NCBI GenBank assembly: GCA_021730945.1
Contig: JAKFYH010000006.1
Coordinates: 1 to 64,000 of the forward strand
Direction of reading: 5' to 3'
DNA length: 64,000 bases
DNA from: Acidobacteriota bacterium
GTDB taxonomy: Bacteria > Acidobacteriota > Vicinamibacteria > Vicinamibacterales > UBA2999
Shown here: positions 15,234 to 50,190 of the stretch, one piece after another
Position numbering within the stretch: the stretch's first letter is position 1
Layout: each line of letters begins with the position of its first letter
The notes under the pieces: model-generated
What the model was told of the DNA's origin: nothing
The model's input: the letters and a program-made list of their open reading frames with translations, nothing else
The model's database searches: none
Program-made: the position numbers and the translations under genes

Positions 15234-15581
15234 CTAGCGTCGTCCCTGCGTGAGCAGCCGTACCGAGGCGCTGGGGCGGAAGGTCATCGGTTGGGTGATG
15301 ATGCCGGGAATGAACGCCACGTCGGTGGTGTAGACCACCTCGACGACGCGGTCGGAGCCGTGCTGGCTGACGGCGACGGCGTCGGCGTCCACCGGCAAGT
15401 CATACTCGGCGGCGATTGCGACCACCTGCTGCGTGACCTCGGCATCCGAGGCATTGGGCGCAAACAACAGCGCCTGTTCCACCGCATCCTCAAACTGGTA
15501 GTTCGACATCATGGCCCGCGCGCCTTGGAACGCGGCAGTCAACAGCAGCAGGGCCAGAACGAGCTTGATGATGGTTGTCAT
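15234..15581 (-). CDS. Small exported or membrane-anchored protein of unknown function
   Basis: 115 residues. A hydrophobic N-terminal segment (residues 4-24, IIKLVLALLLLTAAFQGARA) could be a signal peptide or one membrane anchor. The remainder is a small alpha/beta domain (helix FEDAVEQALLFAPNASDAEV, then beta strands ending IPGIITQPMTFRPSASV), reminiscent of short anchored DUF4845-like proteins, but I cannot assign a family. A TATGAT -10-like box lies on the minus strand at 15625-15620. It is convergent with the cyclodeaminase gene with no intergenic base, and the repeat cassette lies just upstream. Confidence 0.7.
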   Translation of the reverse strand: MTTIIKLVLALLLLTAAFQGARAMMSNYQFEDAVEQALLFAPNASDAEVTQQVVAIAAEYDLPVDADAVAVSQHGSDRVVEVVYTTDVAFIPGIITQPMTFRPSASVRLLTQGRR

Positions 15582-15918
15582 GTCGCCACGGGCGCGCGGG
15601 GGGACCGGCGCCTGCCGCCATCATACGCCGATCGGGAGTTGAAAGTGGACAGTTGAAAGTGGAAAGTTTCAGTTTCAGTTTCAGTTTCAGTTTTTCAGTT
15701 CGGAGTCTCAGTTCGGAGTCTCAGTTCGGAGTCTCAGTTCGGAGTCTCAGTTGGGAGTCTCAGTTGGGCGTGATCCGCGCGGAGCAGGGGCCACGCCTAC
15801 CCACTGGCGCCCGAAGCGTAAACCTGAGACTCAAACTAAAACTAACAACTGAAACTAAAACTAACAACTGAAACTGAAACTGAAACTCTCCACTTTCAAC
15901 TGTCAACTTTCAACTTTT
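15582..15918. repeat. Intergenic nested repeat cassette: inverted repeat arms enclosing tandem arrays
   Basis: This 337-bp gap has no gene. It is framed by imperfect inverted arms: 15637-15694 (starts AGTTGAAAGTGGACAGTTGA) and about 15871-15917 read on the minus strand (starts AGTTGAAAGTTGACAGTTGA). Inside the left arm is a hexamer array of AGTTTC (15665-15694; four perfect units plus one variant). Then comes a 13-bp array TCAGTTCGGAGTC with units at 15695, 15708, 15721, 15734 and a variant at 15747, plus a partial at 15760. On the right, a 19-bp unit AAACTAAAACTAACAACTG occurs twice exactly (15833-15851, 15852-15870), followed by GAAACT hexamers. The base composition is AT-richer than the surroundings. 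A related fragment occurs at 50158-50190. Confidence 0.85.
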
Positions 15919-16574: not shown

Positions 16575-18377
<1,803 letters not shown>

Positions 18378-50150: not shown

Positions 50151-50157
50151 CTCTTAA

Positions 50158-50190
50158 GTGGAAACTTGGAAGTTGACAGTTGAAAGTTTG
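50158..50190. repeat. Fragment of the dispersed GTTGACAGTTGAAAG repeat between the tRNA and the zinc-ribbon gene
   Basis: The stretch from 50158 to the next start codon contains AGTTGACAGTTGAAAGT, the same core that forms the arms of the cassette at 15637-15917. It sits between the tRNA 3' end and the ATG at 50191, so it also forms the leader of that gene and may supply its weak ribosome site (GAAAG). Confidence 0.55.

Follow-up and report, generated by a model that had tools for sequence, protein, structure and literature searches.

REPIN/RAYT systems place many short paired inverted repeats between genes, and every repeat family has a single protein gene associated with it that bears those repeats on its flanks. 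That protein is the REP-associated Y1 transposase (RAYT; PMC3116915 and PMC2817692). Another described system is the intervening sequence (IVS) of 23S rRNA, which in Coxiella and Leptospira carries an S23p open reading frame (ORF) inside an inverted-repeat hairpin. In Coxiella, two to three tandem heptamers (GACAGAT), whose number varies by strain, precede the S23p ORF (PMC4990558). The S23 protein of X. campestris (2gsc), a structure that we found by sequence, forms a five-membered ring of four-helix bundles (PMC4990558), and its four-helix homologue Avd is an accessory protein that works with reverse transcriptase in DGRs (PMC10053308). Tandem heptamers, some in inverted pairs and often near gene ends, have also been described between genes, as the STRR of cyanobacteria, as TAACTGA in Beggiatoaceae and others, and as GGGAATC/GGGGATT in Xanthomonas and Nostoc (PMC4679880, PMC4692102). 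No protein is named for them there: PMC4679880 goes no further than the speculation that the mobile element could be a protein that binds TAACTGA, and the Xanthomonas GGGAATC repeats are generally unassociated with mobile elements (PMC4692102).

The locus described here lies in a stretch of 64,000 nucleotides (the window) from a genome of the order Vicinamibacterales, Acidobacteriota (G000), whose congeners include G002, G003 and G005 to G008. Positions 15637-15917 form a near-perfect inverted repeat built from 7-, 6-, 13- and 19-bp arrays, with arms (15637-15686 and 15866-15915) that are 96% complementary across 50 nt at a spacing of 179 nt. An initial annotation had placed a large inverted repeat here, correctly to within a few bases, and all three arrays that it had reported inside the arms (hexamer AGTTTC, 13 bp and 19 bp) were recovered by Tandem Repeats Finder, the source of the units and copy numbers below. 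The features are as follows.

15234-15581, minus strand: 115-aa gene, on the opposite side of the element from lepB
15637-15917, no strand assigned: whole hairpin element, gene-less and almost certainly of the AGTTGAA family
15637-15668, plus strand: left outer arm, AGTTGAA-type heptamers in 14/7-bp units (14-bp register AGTTGAAAGTGGAC / AGTTGAAAGTGGAA), in an outer position common to other G000 copies
15665-15693, plus strand: left inner arm, hexamer array AGTTTC, 4.8 copies, 100% (Tandem Repeats Finder)
15695-15765, plus strand: 13-bp array TCAGTTCGGAGTC, 5.5 copies, 98%; other copies have different 13-mers
15766-15828, no strand assigned: core or loop, 63 bp, G+C-rich, repeat-free and gene-free; the place of the S23 gene in the copy on contig C7
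15829-15881, minus strand: right inner arm, 19-bp tandem, 2.8 copies, 94%, continuing into GAAACT hexamers
15884-15917, minus strand: right outer arm, mirrored AGTTGAA heptamers (7-bp units); its end at 15917, the right end of the cassette, is 1 base short of the lepB stop codon
15919-16572, minus strand: lepB (signal peptidase I), its 3' end abutted by the element
16575-18377, minus strand: lepA, upstream of lepB on the same strand
50156-50188, plus strand: second small copy, heptamers only, a few bases 3' of the end of a tRNA gene

The 13-mer is a composite of hexamer and heptamer, and two successive copies of the 19-bp tandem are exact in the register AAACTAAAACTAACAACTG. Allowing up to three mismatches, AGTTGAAAGTTGAAAGT occurred nine times in the window against zero expected. 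A long hairpin had been proposed, and RNA from either strand indeed folds far better than shuffled sequence: the minus strand reached -152.6 kcal/mol (z = -14.2; equalled by 0 out of 200 shuffles) and the plus strand -139 kcal/mol (z = -12.5). The earlier view that a 13-bp period is non-coding also held, and we ruled out a coding sequence because periods of 7 and 13 bp disrupt the reading frame and the neighbouring ORFs end at the element. The single Rfam match in the window was a tRNA, with none in the cassette; no intrinsic terminator or promoter pattern was found, and no GTCCGGCTnnAGCCGGAC REP in the window. The 63-bp core holds no S23 ORF, and we therefore term the cassette a gene-less derivative.

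A whole-genome search revealed about 40 places in G000 related to the cassette, which rules out a one-off spacer. This was the alternative left by the initial annotation, with arms found only here and an identical locus in relatives, and the lepB site also varies among congeners; the same two results support its suggestion of a "non-autonomous mobile or hypervariable element". Read side by side in 37 further G000 stretches, the family has its parts in a common order: (AGTTGAA)2-5 on the outside, a linker (for example AGTTGGCAGTT or AGTGGGCAGTTGAAAGTT), (AGTTTC)n, a core, and then the reverse complement of that order. The (AGTTTC)n part is frequently interspersed with other 7-mers, giving a period of 13, and copy numbers and inner units differ from copy to copy. 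The family comprises full hairpins (such as L149, L153, L163, L167, L177 and L180-L182), half elements and heptamers alone. The window cassette is of the dispersed between-gene type, with tandem 7-mers and paired inverted repeats as in other G000 copies, and has its arm unit and part order in common with the S23-bearing G000 copy L150. We are close to certain that it belongs to this AGTTGAA/S23 family, and within this local family it is unremarkable.

With genes taken from a simple codon-usage gene caller, 26 out of 39 G000 copies had an end no more than 10 bp away from a stop codon, compared with 6.9% of random intergenic bases. By inspection, about 16 of the single-armed copies beside a stop codon agree in sense with the gene that they follow and 7 disagree, so sense agreement is a tendency; in 50 kb of G005 around a GCCAGTA S23 gene, single stop-abutting arrays, likewise inspected, read in the sense of the preceding gene. 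Two tandem signal-peptidase paralogues (G000 C26:13683-14783; L196, L201) lie near the AGTTGAA hairpin L167, and pairs like them also occur in G003, G005, G006 and G007.

The copy at G000 C7:65903-66613 (L150, 711 bp) carries, between AGTTGAA arms, an ORF of 137 aa for an S23 / 23S_rRNA_IVP four-helix protein. This ORF matched TIGR02436 "four helix bundle protein" with E 5.5e-10 (39.4 bits, cut-off 24) and PF05635 (23S_rRNA_IVP) with E 4.1e-7, just under the Pfam cut-off. The same layout, an S23 gene between AGTTGAA arms, was found at G005 C13:160092-160788, and the S23 gene on G002 C159 has an AGTTGAA array on one side. In an IQ-TREE phylogeny of 65 S23 proteins, these three formed one clade (92/94), the nearest relatives of which have the units AGTTCAA and AGTCAGC. 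S23 is under purifying selection, with dN of 0.1-0.2 versus dS of 1.3-2.8 (dN/dS about 0.05-0.15).

As in the rRNA IVS, the S23 ORF here lies inside an inverted-repeat hairpin, and the window cassette shares the inverted-repeat stem, but it sits between lepB and the 115-aa gene and not in 23S rRNA; the elements here lie between protein genes, their arms are long tandem arrays and many copies are gene-less. Like REPINs, the cassette family consists of dispersed paired inverted repeats between genes. By contrast, its arms are tandem 6-19-mers and not single palindromes, its protein is a four-helix bundle and not an HUH enzyme, and the Y1 genes of these genomes carry other repeats, none of them with AGTTGAAAGT (26 Y1_Tnp loci). 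A likely RAYT locus of G000 is L254 (C10:44007-47327), where an inverted REP array of great length (GACGTTCGGAGAGCGACGG..., Smith-Waterman 243) surrounds a Y1_Tnp gene. The cassette resembles MITEs in being small and gene-less with inverted ends, although the gene-bearing C7 copy codes for S23 and not a transposase, and a non-exhaustive search found no parent transposase with these ends. It differs from the published heptamer repeats in having a candidate protein, S23. A full-text search of open-licence PMC papers found no link between S23/IVP and flanking heptamer arrays.

S23 genes lay between inverted repeat arms at 71 out of 117 loci, which are phylogenetically non-independent, versus 0 out of 320 random positions. 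Two-sided tandem arrays were counted up to 450 bp away, and inverted arms from a Smith-Waterman score of 40 upwards. The genus sample, 71 loci from a search listing just over 70 PF05635 matches, some of them below the Pfam cut-off, had two-sided arrays at 44 and inverted arms at 46. Cyanobacterial and other plasmid S23 genes had them at 9 and 10 out of 16, respectively, and those of other named genomes at 15 and 15 out of 30, with an array on at least one side at 27 of the 30 and 7-mers the commonest unit. The corresponding values were 2 and 0 out of 320 for random positions, 0 and 0 out of 22 for signal peptidase genes, and 2 and 13 out of 26 for Y1_Tnp genes, the positive control for REP hairpins. 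Clear two-sided arms were missing from about 40% of S23 genes.

In most cases one short tandem unit, most commonly a 7-mer, is found in both S23 arms, inverted from one to the other. Within the genus, units differ by lineage (GCCAGTA, GGGATCC, GGGATCA, AGATCAAC-type 8-mers, 18-mers and 24-25-mers), and unit sequence and length follow the S23 tree (Mantel Spearman 0.18, p 0.001), a co-variation that would also follow from plain co-inheritance of gene and arms. S23 with mirrored arrays was seen in Cyanobacteria, Gemmatimonadota, Pseudomonadota, Elusimicrobia and other Acidobacteriota. The genomes of other phyla were reached through a LepB scan of named genomes and are mostly distant relatives; 18 out of 50 named genomes of other groups contain S23. 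By tblastn, 37 plasmid records contained S23, most of them from Nostocales; at most of the 16 loci read in detail, mirrored heptamers hug the ORF, with L310, L311 and L316 weak. No S23 was found in phage records. Cyanobacterial units were AGTAGGG in Nostoc edaphicum, AGGGTGT in Calothrix, GCTAAAA-type in Pseudanabaena, GGGAACA in Nostoc C052 and AAAAGGG in Geminocystis, and we read these S23-flanking units as candidates for classical STRR; others were GAGGGCAG in Gemmatirosa and GAGGACA in Azospirillum. The strongest arms outside the genus, long 16/32-bp inverted arrays with a Smith-Waterman score of 176, flank an S23 gene of Gemmatimonadota REEB316 (L346, G068). On plasmid pNe_5 of N. edaphicum (L305, 258476-260668), an AGTAGGG-armed S23 element lies between both ribonucleotide reductase subunit genes, on the strand opposite to both.

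Gene-less arrays were also compared with cognate S23 genes among the congeners. Exact 17-mers of the AGTTGAA type (AGTTGAAAGTTGAAAGT) numbered 53 in G000, 128 in G002, 2 in G005 and 0-1 in the others, and a looser DNA search gave 43 similarity matches to AGTTGAA arrays in G005 despite the two exact ones. A reversed-pattern control was uninformative for this unit because AGTTGAA read backwards is one of its own rotations. GCCAGTA arrays (78 pattern matches) occurred in G005 only, and only G005 has a GCCAGTA-flanked S23. The most widespread arrays were GGGATCM, with 152 in G005, 91 in G006, 50 in G000 and up to 21 in others; an S23 with this unit was not found in the 85% complete assembly of G006 despite its 91 arrays. 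Dispersed arrays go together with a cognate S23, to which GGGATCM in G006 is an exception. The GCCAGTA arrays of G005 (5.4 Mb) cluster around the cognate S23 gene at C8:422.8 kb: roughly half of their sites fall no farther than about 75 kb from it (C8:350724-427601; L381-L383 cover C8:380000-429900), as if spreading were local.

Orthologous sites were compared between species, four of them through their flanks. At the lepB 3' end, G006 is empty, G007 has about 30 bp, G005 has a 130-bp AGTTGAA hairpin, G002 has a hairpin of a different unit (AGAGTTA/AGAGTGC), and G003 and G008 have short unrelated hairpins. The array at L147 is absent from G003, G005, G006 and G007; at L148, the other four species have REP-like GTCCGGCTTTAGCCGGAC-type hairpins instead; and at L153 the AGTTGAA hairpin of G003 is shorter, with a REP-like hairpin in G006 and another array in G007. 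Different repeat families thus occupy orthologous sites, so the slots are reused by unrelated families. No clear target-site duplication was seen in these empty/filled comparisons, and no transposition event. The GTCCGGCTTTAGCCGGAC family, a separate REP-like family of G003, G005, G006 and G007, uses the same 3'-end slots (L187, L359, L361, L363, L365, L256); one copy flanks a Y1_Tnp gene in G006 (L256), and none lies in the window.

Taken together, the cassette is probably a gene-less copy of a small S23-coding hairpin element that is related to 23S-rRNA intervening sequences but intergenic. The coding form would consist of a gene for the S23 four-helix bundle (23S_rRNA_IVP, TIGR02436/PF05635) between inverted arms built from short tandem repeats, with a unit specific to each S23 lineage (AGTTGAA/AGTTTC for the window family). 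Gene-less arms would scatter between genes, mostly directly behind stop codons, and slippage and foldback would alter arm length or copy number. The S23 protein may recognise its own array as a DNA or RNA hairpin and may help it to spread with host nucleases, polymerases or ligases; we regard this S23-driven step as about equally likely to be right or wrong. Arrays would persist at gene 3' ends, where damage is least and a hairpin would be tolerated, and where it may stabilise or end transcripts. To our knowledge, S23 has no catalytic centre. PF00078 (reverse transcriptase) had no match in G000 or in 7 out of 8 congeners (one of the nine congeneric genomes matches), which rules out the RT/DGR route for G000; with no reverse transcriptase available there, hairpin binding as DNA or RNA together with host enzymes is favoured.

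S23 might instead be a passenger, selfish or regulatory, that settled between arrays moved by other machinery such as a Y1/RAYT transposase acting in trans. All nine congeners have Y1_Tnp genes, and REP hairpins and arrays share slots in different species. However, the 26 Y1_Tnp loci with complete flanks carry palindromic REPs of their own and lack the AGTTGAAAGT word, which rules out a Y1 transposase as parent of the AGTTGAA unit; two-sided tandem arrays accompany 2 out of 26 Y1 genes as against 44 out of 71 S23 genes, and unit and S23 co-vary. We consider a passenger S23 unlikely. The hairpins could also be host-selected 3'-end elements that protect or end mRNAs, with S23 as the host RNA-binding protein for them. 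The strong fold, the location directly behind stop codons and the differing hairpin families at the same 3' ends would fit, but some sites are empty in congeners, no intrinsic terminator pattern was found, and S23 genes lie within hairpins that have a unit of their own. As a complete explanation this is quite unlikely, though a 3'-end role could be compatible with an S23-coding hairpin element as a later use.

That low-complexity intergenic DNA simply expanded through slippage during replication and foldback, without any underlying element, is already disfavoured and seems very improbable. The initial annotation had seen the cassette as grown by slippage from one seed, and slippage has been invoked for heptamer abundance (PMC4692102). 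It can set copy numbers, which, like the inner units, differ between copies, but it leaves the second, inverted arm and the identical order of parts at many loci unexplained; moreover, the family occurs only where the genome has a cognate S23, and S23 genes are nested inside it.

Reports of tandem heptamer repeats in cyanobacteria and other bacteria go back decades, yet their source has not been known; the S23/IVP protein, although its structure is solved (PDB 2gsc), has likewise lacked an assigned role. The gene-by-gene link between S23 and heptamers across phyla offers a testable explanation for both. S23 with mirrored tandem arrays looks like an undescribed, widespread pairing, which may explain the origin of many unexplained heptamer repeats. 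Eighteen IVP genes in cas loci have been listed (PMC3936711). Repeat-armed S23 genes lie between cas6 and cas4 on plasmids pANA02 of Anabaena sp. 90 (L307), where the CRISPR locus is type I-D, and pPg_01 of Pseudanabaena galeata (L308); these two cases with repeat arms suggest that S23 genes in cas loci may be hitchhikers rather than CRISPR parts. In a broader reading, to which we give slightly less than even credence, S23 would, throughout bacteria, recognise tandem heptamer arrays sequence-specifically and spread them. These would form a widespread class of mobile element with no known recombinase and would account for the STRR of cyanobacteria and similar repeats, for the 23S rRNA IVS and for the S23 genes in CRISPR-cas operons. 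A second REP/RAYT-like system is possible, one whose protein is no known enzyme.
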